From assembly GCA_002855745.1 (NCBI GenBank), contig NDWX01000002.1:62001-126000 (forward strand): 64,000 nucleotides of DNA, read 5' to 3'. The notes below the pieces were generated by a model, which did no database searches, was not told the origin of the DNA, and saw nothing but the letters and a program-made list of their open reading frames with translations. The position numbers and the translations under genes are program-made. The stretch comes from Thermofilum sp. NZ13. GTDB taxonomy: Archaea; Thermoproteota; Thermoprotei; Thermofilales; Thermofilaceae. This document shows, in pieces, positions 18,740 to 63,263 of this stretch. The stretch's first letter is position 1; every line of letters begins with the position of its first letter.

Positions 18740-20323
18740 TTACGTACCGTAACCGTACGCCCAGGGCACTTCCCTAGCCCAGTTGAGAGCCCTCGCGACG
18801 GCCGCCTTCCAGCCTCTGTAGAGTCTCTCACGCTTCTCAGGATCCATCGCTGGCTTGAAGACCCTTTCCGCTTTCCACGTTTTCCTGATTTCCTCTAAGC
18901 TCCCCCAAACGCCGACGGCGAGACCGGCTAGGAATGCTGCCCCAAGGGAGGTGGTCTCGCGCACCAGCGGCCTGATGACATCCACGCCCAGTATGTCCGC
19001 CTGGAACTGAAGGAGAACGTCGCTCCTCGAAGCCCCACCGTCAGCTTTAAGCGACCTGATCCGGGAGGCGGTGTCCTTCTCCATAGCCTCCACGACGTTG
19101 CGGGTCAGGTATGCTATGCTCTCTATCACCGCGCGTGCAATGTGGCGCCTGGTAGTCCCCCTGGTGATCCCTATGATCAGCCCCCTCGCGTAAGGGTCCC
19201 AGTAGGGGGCCCCGAGACCCGTGAAAGCGGGGACGAAGTACAAACCGCCTGTATCGTCAGCCGACTCGGCTAGCGGATCCACCTCGGGGGAAACCTCTAT
19301 GATCTTCAGGCCGTCGCGGAGCCATTGAATAGCGGCGCCTGTTATGAAAACGCTTCCCTCCAGCGCGTAGACAGCTCTGCCCTGCTCGAGGCTGTAGAAT
19401 ACCGTGCTGAGGAGGTTGTTCTCGGATTTGACCACTCTCTCCCCTGTGTTCATGAGTATGAAGTTACCGGTCCCGTAGGTGCACTTCACCTCCCCCGGCT
19501 CAAAGCCCGCCTGCCCAAACAGGGCTGCCTGCTGGTCCCCGGCGTCGCCGGTAACAGGCACCTTTTGGCCGTTGAAGATGCCGTCCAGCTCGGGACCCGT
19601 GTAGCCATACGCCTCTTTCTCGCTGGAGGGGCGCGGAAGCGGTAAGCTCTCCTCAGGTATGTTCCCCATGAGCTCGAGAAGCTCCGCGTCCCACTCGAGG
19701 CGCCGTATGTTGAAGAGCATCGTTCTAGAGGCGTTCGAGTAGTCTGCCACGTGAGCTCCGCCTCTCCCAGGCGTAAGCGTGTTTGGAGAGCCCTTGGTAA
19801 GGTTCCAGATGATCCAGCTGTCTATCGTTCCGAAGACCGCCTCACCCTTCAGGGCTTTATCCCTGAGCGTGCCCACGTTCTCGAGAAGCCACTGGATCTT
19901 GCTTCCCGAGAAGTAGGGGTCAGGGACAAGGCCCGTCTTCCCGTAGATCACGTCGAAGTAGTTTTCCCTGAGCTTGTCGGTTATGGGGGCTGTTCGACGG
20001 TCTTGCCAAACTATAGCGTTGTAGAGGGGCTGGCCGGTCCTCGGGTCCCACACCACTATAGTCTCGCGCTGGTTTGTTACACCTATAGCAGCGATATCTC
20101 GTGGATCAACTTTAGAGCGGTCGAGGGCCTCCTTCATGCAGACTAGAACCTTCTCCCATATCTCCAAGGGGTTGTGCTCAACCCAACCCGGCCGGGGGTA
20201 TATCTGTGTGTGCTCGCGGTAGGCCCAGCCTCCCGGGACAGGGTTTCCGTTCTCATCGTATAAAGCCACGCGCGTCCCCGTGGTGCCCTGGTCCACGACG
20301 AGAACTATCTTCCTTTGCAGCAT
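18740..20323 (-). CDS. glpK: glycerol kinase
   Basis: A 527-residue FGGY kinase. It has the classic N-terminal phosphate site [18 protein letters not shown], the glycerol-site residues in [10 protein letters not shown], and [30 protein letters not shown] and [16 protein letters not shown], all typical of true glycerol kinases. The frame is open 42 bp further up, but I chose ATG 20323 because similarity starts at [13 protein letters not shown] and a TATA-like box lies 27 bp upstream. It makes glycerol-3-phosphate for the glpA gene 43 bp downstream. Confidence 0.95.
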
Positions 20324-20344
20324 TGTCTTTAAAACTCTTCGGAA

Positions 20345-20358
20345 ACTATTTATTTTTA
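20345..20358 (-). promoter_or_regulatory. glpK TATA-like box
   Basis: On the minus strand ATTAAAAATAAATAG lies about 27 bp before the ATG at 20323, the right spacing for a leaderless archaeal transcript of the glpK operon. The end of a decayed tnpB-like gene lies less than 40 bp further upstream. Confidence 0.55.
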
Positions 20359-20390
20359 ATCTCATCCAGAGTCCTTATATGTAAAAGCTT

Positions 20391-30228: not shown

Positions 30229-31242
30229 TTAAATCATTTTCACTTTCTCGAGAGGTCTCACGTGGATGACGTCTTTGTTTACGAGTGCAGGCGGCATCTC
30301 ACCCTTAAGCACGGAGATCAGGTTTCTAGCGGCAAGCTCCGCCATTCTCTGGCGAGCCTCGATTGTTGCACTAGCTATGTGCGGGGCTAAGACAACGTTG
30401 TCAAACTTCGTCAGCGGATGGTCAGGAGGCAGTGGCTCTTGCTCAAATACATCGAGCGCGGCACCTGCTATCCAGCCTTCTCTAAGGGCTTTGACCAACG
30501 CGTTTGTGTCGACCACCGGCCCTCTAGCGGTGTTGATTAAGTAGGCGGTCTTCTTCATCCTGCGCAACCTTTCCTCATTGATCAAGTGATATGTATCCTT
30601 GGTCAGAGGCACGTGTATAGAGACGATATCCGAGACGCTGAGCAGCGTGTCCAAGTCCACGTACTCCATGTTCAAAACGCTCTCCACGTCCCACCTTCTC
30701 TCCACGTCGTAGTAGACGAGCTTCACGTCGAAGCTCGATAGCCTCTTCGCTGTAGCAACACCTATCCTGCCTAGCCCAACGAGACCCACGGTCTTCCCTT
30801 TGAGCTCAGGCCCTGTGAGGAAGTATGGGTTCCATGGCTTGTCCCACTGGCCTGAGCGGATCACCTTGTCAGCCTCTACTATGCGCCTCGTAACTGCCAG
30901 GATAAGCCCCACGGTGAACTCCGCTACAGCATCTGTTAGGACTCCGGGGGTGTGAGTGACGTATATCCCCCTTTTAGTCGCCTCGGCTATGTCTATGTGG
31001 TCGAAGCCGACGCTGTAAGTACTTATCACTTTGAGGTTCGGCGCAGCGTCCATTACCTCGGCGTCGATCTTGTCTGTCAGAAGACATAGCAGGGCATCCT
31101 TGTCGCGAACCTTCTCGATGAGCTCCTGCCTTGAGGGAGGCCACTCTTTCGAGTTGTGAACTTCGACGTCGCAGCATTCTTTGAGCATCGAGAGCCCGGG
31201 CTCGGGTATTATTCGAGTCACGTAAACTTTAGGCTTTGCCAT
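30229..31242 (-). CDS. D-2-hydroxyacid dehydrogenase (glyoxylate reductase-like)
   Basis: A 337-residue NAD(P)-dependent enzyme that reduces 2-keto acids to D-2-hydroxy acids. The Rossmann motif is VGLVGLGRIGVATAKRL near residue 155; the catalytic Arg is in NTARGPVVDT, the Glu in VFEQEPLP and the His in VVLAPHIASAT. The sequence follows archaeal glyoxylate reductases closely. It lies 50 bp after the creatininase-family gene in the inositol-like cluster and is probably in the same transcript, where it could reduce a keto acid formed in that route; the true substrate is unknown. Confidence 0.88.
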   Translation of the reverse strand: MAKPKVYVTRIIPEPGLSMLKECCDVEVHNSKEWPPSRQELIEKVRDKDALLCLLTDKIDAEVMDAAPNLKVISTYSVGFDHIDIAEATKRGIYVTHTPGVLTDAVAEFTVGLILAVTRRIVEADKVIRSGQWDKPWNPYFLTGPELKGKTVGLVGLGRIGVATAKRLSSFDVKLVYYDVERRWDVESVLNMEYVDLDTLLSVSDIVSIHVPLTKDTYHLINEERLRRMKKTAYLINTARGPVVDTNALVKALREGWIAGAALDVFEQEPLPPDHPLTKFDNVVLAPHIASATIEARQRMAELAARNLISVLKGEMPPALVNKDVIHVRPLEKVKMI

Positions 31243-31292
31243 CAGTTAAATCAAAAAAACGTAAATATATAAATTTTACCCCAAAAATACAG

Positions 31293-32216
31293 CTAGTACT
31301 TGAAGTCGCCTGGGTTCGGCCAAACCTGGGGGACCACGCCCGGCGGGTAGGTCTTGTGTAGCCACTCGACGAACTCCACTATGCGCTGGATCGCCGTTTC
31401 GACAACGACCTCCCCCTTCTCGCGGCTCGCCTTGCTCGGGTACCCCACGCTACCCTTCGGGTAGTGGTGTATCTCCATGTACGCACTGATGTCGTACCAC
31501 CCGAAGGGCCTGCCGTACACATTGCCGGCTTTGTCAGCCCACTTATCTGGGATAACACCGACCATCTTCTCGGCATCCGACTCTTTGAGCTTACTCGGAT
31601 CTATCAGCTTGGGGGCAACGTACCAGAGCACGCTGGCCTCGAGCTCGTCTGCGTGGATGAACGGTGTTTCCAGGATTACGCCTGGTTTTAACTCTGTCCC
31701 CTGCTTTAGGATATCCCTAACCCAGGCCCACCAGCTTGTTACGAGAATGAGTGCCTTAACTCCCTCCTCGATAATGGCCTTGTCCTTGACTATGGGGAGC
31801 ACGTACTCCTGGCCGTGGCTGTTGAACAGGATGATCTTCTTGAAGCCTGCATTGCTCAGCCACTTGACCACGCTTGTAACGTAATCGATGTATGCTTCCT
31901 TTTTAACCGGGATCGTCCCGGGCATCCCGTAGTGGTGGCTTGGGTGGCTACCATAGAAGATCGGTGGAGCGACAGTTACACCCGTCTCAAACGCCACCCT
32001 CTCCGCGATGTACGTCCCTATCAGGGTGTCTTCACCCGTTGCTTGTGCTAGTCCGTGCGACTCGACCGATCCGCAGGGCACGAACACTATGTCGTTCTTC
32101 TTCACCCTCTCCAGTAGTTCAGCCATCGTCATCTGATCGAGGTAAATTTTCTCACCAAACTTGTTGTACACGGGGCGCGCGAAACGAGACTCGTACTCGA
32201 CCATTTCAACCACCAT
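31293..32216 (-). CDS. creatininase-family hydrolase, IolN-like
   Basis: A 307-residue metal hydrolase of the creatininase fold. The metal-site motifs are PCGSVESHGLAQATGED, YGSHPSHHYGMPGT and LFNSHGQEYVLP, with a later Glu in HADELEASV. The family splits cyclic amides or, in the Thermotoga route, acts on an oxidised inositol. Its neighbour upstream is an IolM-like dehydrogenase (25 bp gap) and the divergent gene is IolO-like, the same trio as Thermotoga TM0412-TM0413-TM0416 as I remember it. On that basis I call it IolN-like. Start ATG 32216; an internal ATG lies four codons in. Confidence 0.75.
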   Translation of the reverse strand: MVVEMVEYESRFARPVYNKFGEKIYLDQMTMAELLERVKKNDIVFVPCGSVESHGLAQATGEDTLIGTYIAERVAFETGVTVAPPIFYGSHPSHHYGMPGTIPVKKEAYIDYVTSVVKWLSNAGFKKIILFNSHGQEYVLPIVKDKAIIEEGVKALILVTSWWAWVRDILKQGTELKPGVILETPFIHADELEASVLWYVAPKLIDPSKLKESDAEKMVGVIPDKWADKAGNVYGRPFGWYDISAYMEIHHYPKGSVGYPSKASREKGEVVVETAIQRIVEFVEWLHKTYPPGVVPQVWPNPGDFKY

Positions 32217-32241
32217 TATATGACTGCGTCATATTAAACCT

Positions 32242-33447
32242 TTATGGCTTCAACGTGATTTTTCCGTCTATCCTCTGGTGCGCCCGCTCGAAAGCCTTGT
32301 GAACCTCGTCGAGCTTGAACCTCGAAGTTATGATCTGCGTCATATCAATTCTGCCCGCGGCCATCAGTCGGATCACGTTTCCAAAGTTTCTGAAACCTGA
32401 GTGGCCCTGGCTTCCGAATAGCTGGCCTCTCCTGACCTGGAAAACCTCGATGTATATTGGAACCTCCTTAGGAGCCCTCCCGATCCACGTTATCTTCCCA
32501 TCTATGGCTATGCTCCTCTGAATCTGCGGAAGGGTGTGCTGAGGAGAGCCTGCCGCCTCCACGTGGAAGTCGGCTCCCTGGCCGTCTGTAACTTCGAGTA
32601 TTTTCTCCCAAGGCTGCACACCGTTCTTTTCCAAGTCAACTGGGTTAAACACGTAGTCGGCTCCCACTTTTTTGGCTAGTTCCCGCCTGACAGGACTGAC
32701 CTCGAAGGAGATTATCTTGCCGGCACCAGCAGCCTTCGCGAGGGCAATGGCTGCGAGGCCTATTGGTCCAGCCCCCCAGACGACGACGTAGCTCCCAGGC
32801 TTAAAGCCTCCAGCTCTAGTAAACATAGCGTGGTAGGCGACCGAGGTGGGCTCGACCAGGCTCCCGGCCTCGAAGGCCTTGTCTTCGCTGCCGTATCTCT
32901 CCAGAAGCGAGTTTATTTTCCACGCATACTTGGCTTTCACGACCACGTAGTCGGCCATTGCGCCATCATGGGTAAAGCCCAGTTCTCCGAACTCGAGGTC
33001 GGCAGGATCGTTCAGCCTAACACAATGGTTGAAGTCTATACCCCTGCAGGCGTCGCACTCCCCGCACCAGAACATCTCCTCGCTCGTGACCATGTCACCC
33101 GGCTTCAAGCCCCTCACATTGGCGCCGACCTTCTCGACGATTCCGCTGAACTCGTGGCCTATCACGACGGGAAACTTCGTGAGGCCGGGGTAGATTATGT
33201 ACCCTTCTTCATCTGTCTCGAGGAAGTGTATGTCGCTACCGCATATTCCGACGGCTTTCACCCTGATAAGTATCTCATCCGGCTTAGGCTCAGGAACCGG
33301 GTAGTCTGTTCTAAGGACGAGCTTCGGATTCTTCCACACTTTGTTGCCTTCCCGAACCTTGTGCGTGCGAAGCTCGTCAGGGGTGATCTTGTACCCAGGC
33401 CTTGGGGAAAAATCGGCGTAAACGAGCGCAGCTCTCATCGTTGTCAT
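32242..33447 (-). CDS. zinc-dependent dehydrogenase, IolM-like
   Basis: A 401-residue medium-chain zinc dehydrogenase. The catalytic zinc site is VGICGSDIHF with GHEFSG, the structural zinc site has Cys in WCGECDACRG, and the NAD site is VVWGAGPIGLAAIALAKAAG. Several stretches match Thermotoga TM0412 (IolM) as I recall it, notably TDEEGYIIYPGLTKFPV, AGSLVEPTSVAYHA and FQVRRGQLFGSQGHSG. IolM oxidises 2-keto-myo-inositol. The frame is open to 33495, but ATG 33447 has GGTGA eight bases before it and a TATA-like TTTATATGC at 33507-33515 puts transcription start below 33495. Confidence 0.85.
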   Translation of the reverse strand: MTTMRAALVYADFSPRPGYKITPDELRTHKVREGNKVWKNPKLVLRTDYPVPEPKPDEILIRVKAVGICGSDIHFLETDEEGYIIYPGLTKFPVVIGHEFSGIVEKVGANVRGLKPGDMVTSEEMFWCGECDACRGIDFNHCVRLNDPADLEFGELGFTHDGAMADYVVVKAKYAWKINSLLERYGSEDKAFEAGSLVEPTSVAYHAMFTRAGGFKPGSYVVVWGAGPIGLAAIALAKAAGAGKIISFEVSPVRRELAKKVGADYVFNPVDLEKNGVQPWEKILEVTDGQGADFHVEAAGSPQHTLPQIQRSIAIDGKITWIGRAPKEVPIYIEVFQVRRGQLFGSQGHSGFRNFGNVIRLMAAGRIDMTQIITSRFKLDEVHKAFERAHQRIDGKITLKP

Positions 33448-33596
33448 ACCCTTTTTCACCGTGATCCCTCTGCCACTATCACTTCTTATAAGCAATCTGA
33501 GAAATGCATATAAATCGAGGCCTTGCCCATCAAAAAAGAGCGTTAATTCGACAAGAAGTTTAATAACGCGTCATCGTTAGAAGTTCTGCGGTACTT
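33448..33596. promoter_or_regulatory. divergent promoters of the inositol-like cluster
   Basis: On the minus strand TTTATATGC (33507-33515) serves the dehydrogenase operon; on the plus strand GTTTAATAAC (33558-33567) serves the epimerase gene at 33597. A single regulator could bind between them. No palindrome was clear enough to name as an operator. Confidence 0.45.
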
Positions 33597-34421
33597 GTGT
33601 TCAAGATCTCGATCGCTTATACCCCCCAGAGGGCGAAGTTCGAGGCAGTTGCCACAGGAACACCTGAGGCTGTTATCCCCCTTTTGGCCGAGCTGGGCTA
33701 CGATGGTGTCGAGCTATCTTTACTGGACCCATCCGACCTCCCCGGCCTAGTCGCCTTGGCCCGTGACCATGGCCTCGAAGTGCCTGCAGTTGGTACGGGG
33801 CTTAACTACCTTCACTTGGGTTTAGACCTCACAAGCCCGGATGAGAATGTAAGGAAGAGGGCCCGCGAGAGACTCCTCGAGTTCGTAGAAAACGCCGGCA
33901 GATCCGAGGTCGCGGGGGTTATAGTTGGCCTAATTAGGGGGCGGGGTGACGGCTACAGCAAGACCAGCGAAGCCCTCAAGGTGCTGGAGGAGCAGCTGAG
34001 AGTGATTTGTAGAGGCGCCTTGGACTACGGGGTGAAGATTCTCTTGGAGCCACTTAACAGGTATGAGAGCATGCTACTCAACACTGTCGCGGAAGCTCTA
34101 GAATTCATCTCGCGTCTTGATTGCGAGAAAGCCTACCTCCTCCTCGATACCTTCCACATGAACATTGAGGAGCCTGTGATCGAAGACTCGATACGGATGG
34201 CTGGAGGGAGGATAGGCCATTTTCACATAGCAGACAGTAACAGGTACGCTCCAGGAATGGGCCACCTGGATTTCTCCTCAATACTCAGCGCGCTGCACGA
34301 TACGGGTTACAGGGGATTTATCTCGGCTGAGGTCATTGTCAAGCCCGATTTTGAGACCGTGGCTAAGCTGACCCTGAGCACACTCAAAATAGCAATGTCA
34401 GGGTTAACTCGCGAAGGATAA
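33597..34421 (+). CDS. TIM-barrel sugar epimerase, IolO-like
   Basis: A 274-residue xylose-isomerase-like TIM barrel. Metal ligands fit ILLEPLNRYE (Glu), LLLDTFHMNIEE (Asp, His), HFHIADSNRYAPGMGHLDF (His, Asp) and ISAEVI (Glu). The whole middle, in particular DTFHMNIEE and HIADSNR.APG.GH.DF, matches Thermotoga TM0416 (IolO), which turns 5-keto-L-gluconate into D-tagaturonate. The start is a GTG about 33 bp after a TATA-like box. It is divergent from the IolM/IolN-like operon and is followed by an unrelated hydrolase gene. Confidence 0.85.
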   Translation: MFKISIAYTPQRAKFEAVATGTPEAVIPLLAELGYDGVELSLLDPSDLPGLVALARDHGLEVPAVGTGLNYLHLGLDLTSPDENVRKRARERLLEFVENAGRSEVAGVIVGLIRGRGDGYSKTSEALKVLEEQLRVICRGALDYGVKILLEPLNRYESMLLNTVAEALEFISRLDCEKAYLLLDTFHMNIEEPVIEDSIRMAGGRIGHFHIADSNRYAPGMGHLDFSSILSALHDTGYRGFISAEVIVKPDFETVAKLTLSTLKIAMSGLTREG

Positions 34422-34464
34422 CGATATTTAAGTATTTGTGAGTGTAGGGAATGCTTGCGGAGAT

Positions 34465-35226
34465 ATGTCCAAGGAAGGAGTGAAGCTTTATTTTCTCGGG
34501 ACAGCTGGTAGCACTTTCACGGGAGATAACTTCCCCCCTTGCATCTTCATTGAAGGTTATCTCCTTGACTGCCCCGCTCAGTGCCCTCAAGCGCTTGTAA
34601 AATACAACCTTTTAGACCCCCTTCACACAGTTCTGCTGACGCACCTGCACATGGACCACTCGCTCGGCTTATACGACTTGGCGTGGCACTTAGGCACGGT
34701 ACTTTCGCAGAAGAGGCTGAGGCTCTACCTCCCAGCAGGGGGGAAAGGGAATATCGTGAAAGCTTTCGAGATACTAGGTGGTAATCTAGCTGAGAAGCTG
34801 CTGGAGTTCTTCGAGGTTGAAGAGGTCAATCAGGGTCAAGTAAGTAGCAACCTCAGGGTTGTTAGAGCCCGGCACTCCGTGCCCGCTGTGGGCTACAGGC
34901 TGACCCTCGGCAGGGTGTCTGTCTGTTATACTGGAGACACTGCTCCATCAGAAGAGATCGCTGAGGCCTTTAAAGGCTGCGACGTCCTCATACACGACTC
35001 CACTTACCCTCCCGGCAGGGAGGAGCAGGCTGTCCTGGACGGCCACTCCACACCGCTTCAGGCCGCTGAGGTCGCTGAGCGCGTTGGCGCGAGGGTTCTC
35101 GTGCTGATTCACCTTCCTTACGCTCGCTTCGGGAGAGGTGTGAGAGAAATCTACCTTAAGGCCGCGAAGGAGATATTCCCAAACGTGATAGCCCCTGAGC
35201 CCGGCGAAGTGCTTGAGTTAAGGTGA
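34465..35226 (+). CDS. MBL-fold hydrolase, RNase Z-like
   Basis: A 253-residue metallo-beta-lactamase-fold protein with the metal set LLTHLHMDHSLGL near residue 67, the His in ARHSVPAVGY, the Asp in CYTGDTAPS and the final His in VLIHLPYAR; the AHDST-like motif reads LIHDSTYPPG. The pattern is that of RNase Z and its relatives, but the flexible exosite arm of tRNase Z is absent, so the role in tRNA 3' processing is only possible. The frame is open from GTG 34438; ATG 34465 is preferred because ATATTTAAG (34425-34433) would start RNA at about 34455. Confidence 0.75.
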   Translation: MSKEGVKLYFLGTAGSTFTGDNFPPCIFIEGYLLDCPAQCPQALVKYNLLDPLHTVLLTHLHMDHSLGLYDLAWHLGTVLSQKRLRLYLPAGGKGNIVKAFEILGGNLAEKLLEFFEVEEVNQGQVSSNLRVVRARHSVPAVGYRLTLGRVSVCYTGDTAPSEEIAEAFKGCDVLIHDSTYPPGREEQAVLDGHSTPLQAAEVAERVGARVLVLIHLPYARFGRGVREIYLKAAKEIFPNVIAPEPGEVLELR

Positions 35227-35232
35227 TGCAAA

Positions 35233-35676
35233 GTGGAAGTTGAGATACGCGCTGTGAGGCCTGAAGACCTCTTCTACATCATTGAGATGGAGGAGAGGAT
35301 CTTCGGCGCGGACGCTTTCAGCTTTAACTACCTTTTCTACCTCTACGAAAATTGCAGGGAGTTCTTCCTCATAGCCGACTACAAAGGCGTGCTTGTGGGG
35401 TACGTCGTCTCGTGCAGGGAGTCGGAGGAGCTCCACGTTCACAGCATAGCTGTCGCCGAGTGGTTTAGAGGTAAGGGCGTTGGAAGAAGGCTTATGGAGG
35501 AGACACTGAGGCTTGCAAGGCTACGTGGCTTGAAAAGGGTGAGGCTGGAGGTGAAGACCGAGAACACAGTAGCTATATCCCTTTACGAGAAGCTGGGCTT
35601 CGAGCGAAAAGCGTACTTGAAAAGCTACTACGCGGATGGAAGTGACGCTTACGTCTATGTATTAAATCTTCAGTAG
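35233..35676 (+). CDS. rimI: GNAT N-acetyltransferase, RimI type
   Basis: A 147-residue acetyltransferase. Motif A for acetyl-CoA is VAEWFRGKGVGRRLMEET near residues 75-92, and the C-terminal LEVKTENTVAISLYEKLGF is typical of RimI/Ard1. In archaea this group acetylates protein N-termini. The GTG start has AGGTGAT five bases before it, inside the end of the MBL gene, so the two are translationally linked. The end overlaps proS by 7 bp (convergent). Confidence 0.88.
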   Translation: MEVEIRAVRPEDLFYIIEMEERIFGADAFSFNYLFYLYENCREFFLIADYKGVLVGYVVSCRESEELHVHSIAVAEWFRGKGVGRRLMEETLRLARLRGLKRVRLEVKTENTVAISLYEKLGFERKAYLKSYYADGSDAYVYVLNLQ

Positions 35677-52384: not shown

Positions 52385-52424
52385 ACCTGCATCTTACATA
52401 TAAGCTTTACTTTACATAACCGGA
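52385..52424 (-). promoter_or_regulatory. promoter of the arsR-bactofilin operon
   Basis: On the minus strand TAAAGCTTATATGTAAG (about 52390-52408) supplies a TATA-like box some 30 bp before the ATG. The segment TTACATA recurs as TTTACATAA 17 bp away, so a dimeric ArsR protein could bind across the box. It lies partly in the end of the aldolase gene. Confidence 0.4.
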
Positions 52425-53215
52425 TCCTCCCTTAACCCTAGTTCCTCCATAACCTTGCTGGCCGATGCACCTCTGTGGATTACGTTCATAAGCGCTTTCA
52501 CGACAAGCCCAGGAGAGCTATGCTGGAATATATTCCTCCCAATGGCGGCTCCGGCGGCGCCGGCCCTAACCGCGTCCTCCACTCTCCTCAAAACCTCAAG
52601 GAGGGGCGCCTTCGACGCGCCCAGAACAACGACGGGGACTGGGGTTTTGCGGACGACCTCGGAGAAGTTTTCAGTGTAGATTGTTTTGACTATGTCGGCT
52701 CCCAGCTCGGCCGCGATCCTCGCGCCGTAGGCTACGACGTCGCTGTCCACGCTAGGGAAGCCCGGCTGCTTAGGCACGACCTCAGCCATAACAGGTACTC
52801 CGAGCAACTCGGCCTGCTCGACTACGCTTGCCAGCTTCTCCCATAGGGCCGACTCGTTACGGGAGCCTGGATACACCATGACGCTCACGGCGTCAGCCCC
52901 AAGCCTTACCGCGCGTTCCACGCTTGAGATGAGCCTGTCGTCGGTCTCGTCGAGGCTCCTGACTGTTCCTGTGCCATCGATCCTGGCCACGATGAAGGTG
53001 CCAGGAAGCATCTCCCAGTACTTCTCTATCAGCGCGGGGGTCATCATAACCGCGTCCGGCGAGCCCTCAGGAACCATCCTAAGCGTTGCCCGCATGTCCT
53101 CAATTCCTTTTATGGGCCCGTGCCTCCTCCCGTGGTCCAGTGCAACAATAAGGGCTTTGCCGTCTCTGAAGAGCCTCGCTAGCCTCAGCCTTTTCCCGGA
53201 GCTCAAGGCTCCCAC
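52412..53215 (-). CDS. class I DhnA-type aldolase
   Basis: A 267-residue TIM-barrel aldolase of the archaeal FbaB/DhnA/LsrF family: [15 protein letters not shown] near residue 22, [23 protein letters not shown] with the Schiff-base Lys, [10 protein letters not shown] and the phosphate loop [14 protein letters not shown]. The group includes fructose-bisphosphate aldolase, ADH synthase and sugar-phosphate lyases. It overlaps the cyclophilin-like gene by 13 bp and follows a sugar epimerase, so a role in sugar or sugar-acid breakdown is more likely than aromatic amino-acid synthesis. Confidence 0.85.
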
Positions 53216-53586
53216 TCGACTCTCACTTTCTCGCCGCTCTTCACAGCCTTCAGGCGGTCCGGATCGCCCACAACCCTCCCAAATACGTTGACTGGACTTG
53301 CAGGCCTGATCTCACCCGGCTTACTCACGGGAGTTGGCCCGAAGAAGAGGCAAATAGCGTTTCCAGGAGGCCAGTAGGCAACGTCGCCTCTCTCGACGAC
53401 CTCCGAGCCTACCTCCTGGCCCACCCTAACGGGCGTGGAGAAGTAGATTTCCTGCCCCCAAAGGTTAACCCTGCTCTCGAAGGGCGCAGCCTTGATGATA
53501 GCCTCTGCGGTCTTGGGGTTCCGCCCGGTCAGCTCCACCTCAACTACCCCTATGCTTTCGGGGAAGATTATCTTTAGCTTACTCAC
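53203..53586 (-). CDS. cyclophilin-like (DUF369/TM1367-type) protein
   Basis: A 127-residue beta-barrel protein of the cyclophilin-like fold seen in TM1367 and archaeal DUF369 members: [20 protein letters not shown], then [20 protein letters not shown] with [10 protein letters not shown]. The residues for proline isomerase activity are not evident. I chose GTG 53586 because the longer frame begins inside the upstream gene and similarity starts at KLKIIFPES; the GTG overlaps the upstream stop by 8 bp. It links the epimerase and aldolase genes, so translation of the three is coupled. Its job is not known. Confidence 0.7.
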
Positions 53587-54511
53587 GCTCCACCACCCGA
53601 GCAAAAGCCGTGTAGAGCACACCTTTCGCGGCCTCGACCACCTCCCTCCAGTGCTGACCCTCCTCGGGTTTAACCTCGAAGCCGACGGCTCCGCTGTACC
53701 CGATTTCAGCGAGAATCCTCAACAGCTCTTCAACGTCTTCGACCCCGTTGACAGCCCCCGGCCTGTAGAAGCCTGGATGCCAGTCGACCATCCTACCGTC
53801 GGGTAGCTTCTTAGCACACCCGATGTGGATGTGAGAGAGGTAGTCTTTCGCGCGGACGAGGGCGGCCGGCTTCTCGTTCAGCATGGGCGCGTGGCTGAGG
53901 TCCCACAGTAGCCCGATGTTGCTGTACTCCTGCCTGACTTCTCGGACAACTTCAACCGCTTCATCTATAGGTCCTATCAGCTGCCTCTTATCCCACTCTC
54001 TGTCGAACGTCTCCAGGATTAGGCTTACGCCGAGCCTCGAGCCGAGGCTAGCAAGTTCCTTAAGGCTTTTGACGAGCGAGTCCTTTGCCGCTTCTCGGTT
54101 TTCGGGGCCGGGGTCAGCCCCGCTCGAGAAGCCTACCTTCTTTACCCCCCTTGCGGCCGCGATCTCTATTGCTTGCGAGAGAGCCTCGACAGCCTTCCTT
54201 CTCTCGTCCTCATTAACAGATGAGGGGTTCAGGCCTTGAGCTGTAGTCATCGGCTGAAGCCCCACAGCGATGTCCACTCCACTGCTTTGGAGAATTGGCG
54301 CTATGGTTTTCCAAGCCTCGTCGCTCATGAGGTTAACCTCTATAACATCGAAGAAGGGGTCTTTGGCTAGAACCGTTATTGTTTCGATAGCCGCCTGAAC
54401 GTCGCTTTTCACTAGAGGGGGGTTCGCCATGAATGCGACGATGCTGACCTTCCACGGGAAGGGGACCAAGTGGGCGTTCTTCCCCTTCTTAACCGAAACG
54501 GCAAGCATCAA
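53579..54511 (-). CDS. xylose-isomerase-like sugar epimerase
   Basis: A 310-residue TIM-barrel protein of the sugar phosphate isomerase/epimerase group. Likely metal ligands are the Glu in [13 protein letters not shown], the Asp and His in [11 protein letters not shown], the His in [11 protein letters not shown] and the Glu in [11 protein letters not shown]. It is first in a run of three overlapping genes with a cyclophilin-like protein and a DhnA aldolase. Together these could isomerise and cleave a sugar or sugar acid; the substrate is unknown. ATG 54511. Confidence 0.78.
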
Positions 54512-61655: not shown

Positions 61656-63263
61656 ATGCAGAAAGAGTACATTCTAACCGTAGACGTCGGCACCACCACC
61701 GTTAAATCAGCCCTGTTCCACGTAACCGGCAAGCTTCTCGCACTAGAGGGGCAGGAGTACCCGACATACTTCCCGCGTCCCGGGTGGGCGGAGCAAGATC
61801 CGGATGACTGGTGGAACACTGCAGTGCAGGTAGTTCGAGGCGTCCTCAAGAAGTCGAGGGTGGATCCTGGGAGTATTCTAGGTGTGTGCGCAAGCAGCCA
61901 GCGGGAGACCATGGCTTTCCTAGATGAGAGTGGGCGTAGCCTAGGGCGCGTTCCAATTTGGATGGACAGGAGGAGCGCGCCGCAAGCCGAGAAAATAAAG
62001 GAGAGAATCAGCCCAGAGGAAATATACAGGAAAACGGGTCTAGTCGTCGACGCAACGTTCACCGCAACGAAGCTCTTGTGGTTCAAGGAAAATCAGCCCG
62101 AGCTTCTTAAAAGGGCTAAGGTGGGCCTGCAGCCTAAAGACTACATCATTTACAGATTTACCGGGGTAACCGTCACAGATCACACTGTAGCGTCGCGAAC
62201 TATGCTTTTCAACATACACTCCCAGCGCTGGGATGACGAGCTGATAAGAGACCTCGGGCTCGGCGAGTACGCTGACCTCCTCCCGGAGTCGCTACCCAGC
62301 TGGGAAGTCGCCGGCGAAGTCACACCCGAAGCTGCCTCCTTGACCGGCTTGAGAGCAGGCACGCCGGTGCTGGCCGGGACGGGGGACAGGACCGCTGAGA
62401 TCCTCGGGGCGGGTATCCTTGACCCAAGCAGAGTGGAGGAGTCTACGGGCACTGGTTCGACTACGGCAACCCTGCTCAGGGAGCCGCGCCTAGATCCAAA
62501 GATGAGGTTCTCTGTGGGGGTTGGGCCTATACCTGGCACGTGGGCCCTAGAAGCGGGTATGTCGACTGCTGGGGCTATACTGAGGTGGTTCCGGGACAAC
62601 CTCGCTGAGGGCGTTAACCTGCTGGCTAGCTCAACCAAGCGCAGAGCCTACGAGTACCTAGATATGGAGGCCGAGTACGTTCCACCCGGATCCAACGGCT
62701 TAATAGTCCTACCGTTTTTCTCCGGTGCTCGGAGTCCGCGTTGGAACCCCTACGCTAGGGGCGTCATCTTCGGGTTAACGGTGTTCCACACGAGGGCCCA
62801 CATCTTCAGAGCCATGATGGAGGGGGTCGCCTACGAGTTGAGGAAGATCCTAGAGGTTCTGAGAGAGCTCGAGATAAAGCCGTCGGAGCTCGTGCTGATG
62901 GGCGGGGGTGCGAAGTCGCCCACGTGGGCTCGGATTAAGTCGAACGTCACAGGCCTGGAGGTGGTTTTGCCGGAGCTACTGGACGCCGCTCTCGGCGGCG
63001 ACGCCATGCTGGTGGCGGTTGCTAGCGGGGCCGTCGGTAGCTACGGAGAGGCGGCGAAGTTGTTCTTCAAGGAGAGAGTGAGGATAAAGCCCGAGGCGGG
63101 CGCTGTGGAGATTTACAACCGCTACTACTCTCTCTACGAGAGGCTCGCCGAGGCCCTCAACGATTATTTTAAGGAAGTCTCGCAGTTGGCCGAAGTACCG
63201 GTGGTCACCCCACCGTGGGACATCGAGAAGCTCGTCCACCTGTTGCTAAAGCTCGAGTCATAA
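61656..63263 (+). CDS. FGGY-family sugar kinase
   Basis: A 535-residue carbohydrate kinase. The phosphate-1 loop is LTVDVGTTTVKSALF, the adenosine region is LMGGGAKSPTWARIKSNVTG, and phosphate 2 is STGTGSTTATLL. It differs from the glpK product: GDRTAEILGAGI replaces the glycerol-kinase GDQQAALFG. It resembles xylulokinases and related FGGY kinases more, so the substrate is probably a pentulose or similar polyol. ATG 61656. The end overlaps the winged-helix gene by 6 bp. Confidence 0.82.
   Translation: MQKEYILTVDVGTTTVKSALFHVTGKLLALEGQEYPTYFPRPGWAEQDPDDWWNTAVQVVRGVLKKSRVDPGSILGVCASSQRETMAFLDESGRSLGRVPIWMDRRSAPQAEKIKERISPEEIYRKTGLVVDATFTATKLLWFKENQPELLKRAKVGLQPKDYIIYRFTGVTVTDHTVASRTMLFNIHSQRWDDELIRDLGLGEYADLLPESLPSWEVAGEVTPEAASLTGLRAGTPVLAGTGDRTAEILGAGILDPSRVEESTGTGSTTATLLREPRLDPKMRFSVGVGPIPGTWALEAGMSTAGAILRWFRDNLAEGVNLLASSTKRRAYEYLDMEAEYVPPGSNGLIVLPFFSGARSPRWNPYARGVIFGLTVFHTRAHIFRAMMEGVAYELRKILEVLRELEIKPSELVLMGGGAKSPTWARIKSNVTGLEVVLPELLDAALGGDAMLVAVASGAVGSYGEAAKLFFKERVRIKPEAGAVEIYNRYYSLYERLAEALNDYFKEVSQLAEVPVVTPPWDIEKLVHLLLKLES

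Follow-up and report, generated by a model that had tools for sequence, protein, structure and literature searches.

A Thermotoga-type inositol gene trio in a Thermofilaceae archaeon and a possible lower route through aldol cleavage of fructuronate

The DNA analysed here (the window) is a stretch of 64,000 nucleotides of Thermofilum sp. NZ13. The host belongs to the Thermofilaceae: related contigs that share the gene order come from Thermofilum and Thermofilaceae. The source assembly is 98.9% complete, with 33 contigs totalling 1.88 Mb. The subject is a trio of genes for IolM, IolN and IolO, enzymes of the inositol pathway of Thermotoga maritima, together with the genes that may carry their product onwards. 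An earlier note had placed the trio and a 2-hydroxyacid dehydrogenase gene (2HADH) at 30229-34421, and all four genes were confirmed there, as follows:

30229-31242, minus strand: 2HADH, 2-hydroxyacid dehydrogenase of the glyoxylate/hydroxypyruvate reductase family (NF009714; PDB 2dbq)
31293-32216, minus strand: IolN-like creatininase-family hydrolase (3-dehydro-scyllo-inosose hydrolase; NF041098, PF02633)
32242-33438, minus strand: IolM, zinc-dependent scyllo-inosose 3-dehydrogenase, ATG start (NF041097; 3ip1; tree)
33439-33596, no strand: divergent intergenic region with a TATA-like ATATAAA stretch (sequence; alignment of seven species, weak evidence)
33597-34421, plus strand: IolO-like 5-keto-L-gluconate epimerase (NF041099 below cut-off; TM0416, 2zvr; tree; conserved residues)

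Because the gaps within the minus-strand run IolM-IolN-2HADH measure only 25 and 50 bases, these genes are likely to form a single operon. IolO is divergent from IolM across 158 bases; this region is partly conserved in the genus, with the same seven-species alignment as weak evidence, and an operator search in it returned no convincing site shared by the seven species except the TATA-like box. Two plus-strand genes follow IolO:

34438-35226, plus strand: RNase Z-like metallo-beta-lactamase-fold protein, 16 bases downstream of IolO
35233-35676, plus strand: RimI-type acetyltransferase, after a gap of 6 bases

The order of IolO and these two genes is kept in the genus and IolO may be co-transcribed with them; as pathway members they were rejected as housekeeping genes.

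Family membership of IolM, IolN, IolO and 2HADH was assessed with the curated NCBIfam equivalog thresholds. IolM passed NF041097 (529.9 bits, cut-off 450), and its top PDB match was 3ip1 (E 2.6e-102), which we take to be TM0412 of T. maritima. IolN was assigned to the creatininase fold family PF02633 and passed NF041098 marginally (248.3 bits, cut-off 245), while 2HADH passed the glyoxylate reductase model NF009714 (485 bits, cut-off 455) and matched glyoxylate reductase 2dbq best (E 2.9e-113). The top PDB match of IolO was TM0416 (2zvr, E 1.4e-51), in which the segment DTFHMNIEE of the window protein is identical and HIADSNR reads HVADSNR. Residues E151, D184, H210 and E245 of IolO, conserved in at least 93% of 28 sequences, are read as the probable metal ligands of the fold.

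The comparison sample comprised 398 genomes of the phylum Thermoproteota (relatives are coded G, fetched loci L). IolN of the window kind was found in 34 of them, from 16 families; IolN counts leave out a weaker IolN-like group (36-38% identity, L070-L075), taken to be a different paralog. IolM, IolN and IolO recur in varied orders in the 40 loci fetched around such IolN genes, and since the same trio was found in about 25 loci of archaeal genomes, its occurrence is not due to chance. Pairwise distances of the three proteins correlate (r 0.67-0.76, 22 loci), as expected from joint inheritance and from species relatedness alike. In the IolO tree, archaeal IolO and TM0416 formed one group with weak to moderate support at its base (89/84), in which three long-branch archaeal paralogs are the sisters of TM0416; in the IolM tree, TM0412 paired with a protein of G241 inside the archaeal IolM clade (98/95). 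With IolM and IolN over their cut-offs, and TM0412 and TM0416 nested among archaeal proteins rather than the trio falling with other substrate groups, the assignment to the Thermotoga type made in the earlier note is borne out. The branching of T. maritima IolM and IolO within archaeal diversity fits an exchange between domains.

Further observations were made around IolN and its relatives. The third IolN-like group (L070, L071, L073, L074) lies in another conserved cluster with proteins of about 608, 131 and 314 amino acids, which probably represents another hydrolase pathway. Two IolN types occur in G194 (L041:835-1752, L044:8247-9167): one scores 332 bits and lies beside IolG, and the other, of the Thermofilum type (71% identical to the window IolN), adjoins an ATP-binding cassette (ABC) transporter. 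A gene of the luciferase-like (F420/flavin-type) monooxygenase family was found beside IolG/IolM/IolN/IolO in three archaea (L067:2995-4053, L069:4558-5580, L072).

IolG, the first enzyme, lies outside the window as previously noted, and a candidate was found at another locus. Of the three GFO/IDH/MocA genes in the genome, on contigs C13, C29 and C11, the C13 gene (L076:9538-10560) is 62-63% identical to the IolGs that adjoin the trio in G339 and G347, and stands alone between recombination genes and a helicase gene. The genes on C29 and C11 were rejected as IolG, with 31-33% identity at most against 62% for C13. The G339 ortholog (L060, 63% identical to the C13 gene and clustered with the trio) scores 372 bits on TIGR04380, above the cut-off of 355.

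A search for downstream uronate enzymes returned a single UxaE-family epimerase gene, on contig C33 among unrelated genes, so enzymes of this kind are not wholly absent from the genome. The encoded protein belongs to a divergent subgroup: it passes PF16257 (94.8 bits, cut-off 27.1), whereas Thermotoga-type UxaE proteins of other archaea reach 390-577 bits. Against 9kcs, a solved 'isomerase', it scores 431 bits. Among 14 control genomes, the family was found in T. maritima only. UxaE adjoins the trio in G339, G381, G349 and G241. The UxaE-like gene of G161 (L196:4515-5967) is split in two frames with an internal TGA, and may be a pseudogene or a genome error.

The earlier note had proposed the Thermotoga route as such; its upper half stands, and its lower half was not recovered. 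UxuA (PF03786) and the mannitol-dehydrogenase family of UxaB/UxuB (PF08125) were not found in the host genome. Its two MR_MLE (enolase-superfamily) proteins score best as o-succinylbenzoate synthase (over the cut-off) and Ala-Glu epimerase, and were rejected as mannonate/altronate dehydratases. The trio has no reductase or dehydratase gene as a conserved neighbour. The standard Thermotoga lower half was missing in every test made, the UxaA- (PF08666/PF04295) and IlvD-type dehydratases not having been searched for.

A different lower module was found instead. Neighbourhood comparison returned four further conserved genes, all present in the host genome: cl15 (about 309 amino acids), p722 (about 720 amino acids), 2HADH and a small cyclophilin-like protein (Cyp). 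The pathway genes are scattered over at least four contigs, most of them in the window, where the following members and candidates lie apart from the trio locus:

52412-53215, minus strand: DhnA/DeoC-type class I aldolase (PF01791, E 9e-35; TIGR01949 223 bits, below the cut-off of 299)
53203-53622, minus strand: cyclophilin-like protein PF04126 (E 6e-47; homologs beside the trio in L051, L042, L060 and L063)
53579-54511, minus strand: cl15, TIM-barrel sugar isomerase/epimerase (PF01261, E 4e-30), proposed tartronate semialdehyde/hydroxypyruvate isomerase
61656-63263, plus strand: FGGY kinase, XylB/GlpK-like, candidate dihydroxyacetone or ketose kinase (TIGR01312 339 bits, below the cut-off of 380)

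In G242 (L051, in the window's order) the genes for DhnA, the cyclophilin-like protein, cl15 and the FGGY kinase directly adjoin IolO, 2HADH, IolM and IolN; the DhnA aldolase and the FGGY kinase of the window are each 55% identical to their counterparts in that cluster. The window kinase is also 44% identical to the kinase next to p722 in G206 (L193), and its gene probably belongs to the lower module. The 2HADH gene, which adjoins IolN/IolM throughout the genus, adjoins UxaE/p722/cl15 in other families. Its presence in the operon had been described as an addition; because the lower-module genes cluster with IolO, 2HADH, IolM and IolN in relatives, it is better explained as part of the module (with 52412-54511 and probably 61656-63263) than as an accident. 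A second kinase gene lies elsewhere in the window:

18740-20365, minus strand: GlpK, true glycerol kinase (669 bits, cut-off 590), which could also phosphorylate dihydroxyacetone

In cl15, E167, D204, H229 and E279 are invariant, and the four metal ligands of the ketose epimerase/hydroxypyruvate isomerase fold are kept. Its fold model (predicted local distance difference test score 86.5) was closest among PDB folds to D-psicose/tagatose epimerases and TM0416, so that the fold search placed it among ketose epimerases and left the substrate undecided. With 49.7 bits on the hydroxypyruvate isomerase model TIGR03234 (cut-off 353), cl15 is proposed to work like that enzyme.

The p722 gene lies on contig C3. 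Its protein matches PF00923 (E 4e-11) over positions 18-152 of the 285 of the model, short of a full-length match, and in a profile match to transaldolase 3r5e (E 1.7e-4) the Schiff-base lysine aligns at the IKIP lysine. K354 is invariant in 21 of 21 sequences and the TNP motif is kept in at least 90%. From these features p722 appears to be a distant relative of transaldolases and fructose-6-phosphate aldolase (FSA). A MalK-like ATPase gene follows p722. Near p722 on C3 (L145:11793-14095) there are also genes for enzyme IIA of the phosphotransferase system and an ascorbate-type IIC component (437 bits, cut-off 380), a system that is unusual in such archaea.

The same genes travel together in the 398 genomes. 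p722 was found in 52 of them, cl15 in 48, UxaE in 37 and IolN in 34; UxaE occurs with p722 in 34, with cl15 in 31 and with IolN in 25 (expected 3-5), and all six pairs among the four gave Fisher p 1e-19 or less. Since species are not independent, a count by family was also made, which lessens the effect of kinship without removing it: all four are present in 13 families out of about 66 (a lower bound on the total, being the largest family number encountered), and every pair has p 2e-7 or less.

Gene clusters in relatives join the upper and lower genes directly. The orders were IolG-IolM-IolN-IolO-p722-UxaE-2HADH-Cyp-cl15 in G241, cl15-IolO-IolN-IolG-UxaE-IolM-p722-2HADH-Cyp in G339, UxaE-cl15-p722-2HADH in G298 and, with an interruption, DhnA-cl15-2HADH..p722-FGGY in G206. 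In G161, UxaE-cl15-p722 is followed by a glycerate 2-kinase gene (DUF4147 + MOFRL) 36 bases from p722, with beta-glucuronidase and 2HADH nearby, and in family f19 a glycerate kinase lies within a few genes of p722. Beta-glucuronidase adjoins the module in both G161 and G314, which fits hexuronates as an input. In Pyrodictiaceae and an Aeropyrum-labelled genome (names inferred), an ABC transporter of the ribose/inositol type joins the trio, IolG and UxaE; for the binding protein of the Pyrodictiaceae transporter the top-scoring family is the rhizopine type (178 bits, cut-off 420), rhizopines being inositol amines. MalK-type transporters neighbour pathway genes in other relatives.

Other combinations around p722 were also seen. 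In L187-L189 (G006, G084, G055), p722, an IolO-like TIM barrel, glycerate 2-kinase and uroporphyrinogen decarboxylase (URO-D)/methyltransferase-like genes are clustered without IolN or UxaE, which suggests another sugar acid or a methylated sugar as substrate. In L186, L190 and L191 (G183, G236, G275), from Thermofilaceae without IolN and UxaE, p722 lies with a DhnA aldolase and an IolO-like paralog, and two of these three clusters hold a GH53 galactanase-like gene.

The following scheme is proposed. Inositol, taken as the probable substrate, would be oxidised by IolG (C13) to the 2-keto compound and a second time by IolM; IolN would hydrolyse the product to 5-keto-L-gluconate, which IolO would convert to D-tagaturonate, and the UxaE-like enzyme (C33) would then epimerise this to D-fructuronate. 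Family and context together make this upper half well supported. In the lower half, where each reaction is drawn from gene context and family chemistry, p722 (C3) would cleave fructuronate through its Schiff-base lysine to dihydroxyacetone and tartronate semialdehyde, in place of reduction and dehydration to 2-keto-3-deoxygluconate (KDG). Tartronate semialdehyde may then be isomerised to hydroxypyruvate by cl15 (53579-54511), reduced to D-glycerate by 2HADH (30229-31242) and phosphorylated by a glycerate 2-kinase to 2-phosphoglycerate, which would enter glycolysis; the FGGY kinase would phosphorylate dihydroxyacetone, and the DhnA aldolase may belong to a parallel branch with phosphorylated intermediates. 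Dihydroxyacetone is the unit that FSA and transaldolases transfer or release, and the substrates on which they act have the fructose configuration. Fructuronate shares this configuration at the bond to be cleaved, and the association of UxaE with p722 would thereby be explained. Reduction of hydroxypyruvate to D-glycerate is an activity of the 2HADH family. The scheme predicts a glycerate kinase, and the glycerate 2-kinase beside p722 in G161 was recognised afterwards. As a whole, with a Thermotoga-type upper half and a lower half of p722, cl15, 2HADH and glycerate kinase, we regard the scheme as fairly probable.

Several points weigh against it. Both the IolO of the window (263.7 bits on NF041099, cut-off 300) and the IolG candidate on C13 (340 bits on TIGR04380) fall below their cut-offs. 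The match of p722 to transaldolases is weak in PDB and Pfam alike and covers part of the protein, the substrates of cl15 and 2HADH are predicted from context and broad family, and DhnA and the cyclophilin-like protein have no explained place. Nine genomes hold p722 and cl15 without IolN or UxaE, so these proteins may serve other sugars. Neither a glycerate kinase nor transport was located in the host genome, where no search was aimed at glycerate 2-kinase or an inositol transporter. The scheme is predicted from genes, and T. maritima showed no growth on inositol in one study (PMC3750489), so that gene presence does not guarantee growth.

Three other readings were weighed against the scheme. 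The same upper half could lead into a phosphorylated branch, in which the FGGY kinase (61656-63263) phosphorylates fructuronate or tagaturonate next to the keto group, DhnA (52412-53215) releases dihydroxyacetone phosphate (DHAP) and tartronate semialdehyde, as in rhamnose and fucose breakdown, and p722 does something else. DhnA-type aldolases commonly handle DHAP, and the single cluster of DhnA, cl15 and FGGY with IolO/2HADH/IolM/IolN in G242, like their company in G206, is what this would lead one to expect; yet neither DhnA nor FGGY is part of the clusters of UxaE, cl15, p722 and 2HADH at the loci examined beyond the window's class (G241, G298, G314, G161), and UxaE is constantly accompanied by p722 (34 of 37 genomes), which makes this branch unlikely as the principal one. 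That the classical lower half operates with enzymes of families outside the searches, through altronate/mannonate and KDG to cleavage, we consider quite improbable: it is the known fate in T. maritima, where UxaE joins the two uronate branches (PMC6353982, PMC3750489), but a nearly complete genome lacks UxuA and the mannitol-dehydrogenase family (UxaA- and IlvD-types unsearched), the MR_MLE enzymes score as other activities, and the trio has no conserved reductase or dehydratase beside it.

The trio could also have been recruited to other cyclitols or sugar acids, such as rhizopine-like amines, quinate-like compounds or L-gluconate/L-galactonate. The window IolN shares only about 41% identity with those archaeal IolNs whose scores on the Thermotoga model are highest, the scores of IolO and IolG are sub-threshold (264/300 and 340/355), the Pyrodictiaceae transporter is best scored as rhizopine-type, and 5-keto-L-gluconate epimerases serve L-glucose catabolism too (PMC12632266). 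Set against this, IolM lies strongly above its cut-off, four inositol-specific steps co-occur and cluster, and an IolN-type ring hydrolase would be pointless in L-gluconate breakdown, so that we give such recruitment little chance.

In the proposed scheme an upper route so far described only in Thermotoga, a known pathway now placed in another domain, is joined to a lower half that matches no pathway in the hexuronate review (PMC6353982). The literature searched describes inositol catabolism for bacteria and, along a different route, for fungi; a narrow search of it, which covered few subscription papers, returned no aldolase acting on fructuronate or tagaturonate. The Thermotoga-type upper half is widespread in Thermoproteota, and the missing reductase and dehydratase, with the conserved set of p722, TIM-barrel protein, 2HADH and glycerate kinase, point to a lower pathway absent from that literature and to a function for four uncharacterised protein groups. 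It is put forward tentatively that many Thermoproteota families hold an undescribed inositol/hexuronate route, in which a p722-type aldolase would cleave fructuronate and an isomerase, a hydroxypyruvate reductase and a glycerate 2-kinase would feed glycolysis. Described Thermofilum members depend on polar lipids or culture broth from other archaea (PMC4673724, PMC6965361), and use by Thermofilum of inositol from this source is speculation.

The T. maritima inositol pathway comprises TM0411-TM0416 with IolG, IolM, IolN and IolO (Rodionova et al. 2013, cited in PMC3750489; PMC5931981 for TM0415). The four upper enzymes are alike by family in the two organisms, and a UxaE-family epimerase is present in the archaeal genome too. 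In contrast, the archaeal genes are scattered over contigs, their IolN, IolO and UxaE are divergent, no IolR was seen next to the trio, and the UxuB/UxuA lower half is lacking, with a lower module of p722, a TIM-barrel isomerase, 2HADH, an FGGY kinase and a DhnA aldolase in its place. The classical iol pathway of Bacillus and Salmonella (IolG, E, D, B, C, J) shares the start with IolG, but no neighbour of the trio belongs to IolE/D/B/C/J; a 2022 survey of 1,511 archaeal genomes reported the classical inositol gene cluster as so far restricted to bacteria (PMC9430895).

With the bacterial hexuronate isomerase pathway (UxaC/UxaB/UxaA, UxuB/UxuA, KdgK/KdgA; PMC6353982) the scheme shares tagaturonate and fructuronate, and in Thermotoga also UxaE, whereas the predicted aldol cleavage to dihydroxyacetone and tartronate semialdehyde would replace reduction, dehydration and cleavage of 2-keto-3-deoxy-6-phosphogluconate (KDPG). 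Compared with the transaldolase/FSA family (PF00923), p722 retains the TNP motif and the Schiff-base lysine region, but is about 720 amino acids long against roughly 220-380 and matches over about 170-180 residues; no solved relative was found over its full length. Finally, 2HADH resembles the glyoxylate/hydroxypyruvate reductases (GyaR, GRHPR) in its NF009714 score and best PDB match, and differs from them in its genetic tie to inositol/uronate genes.

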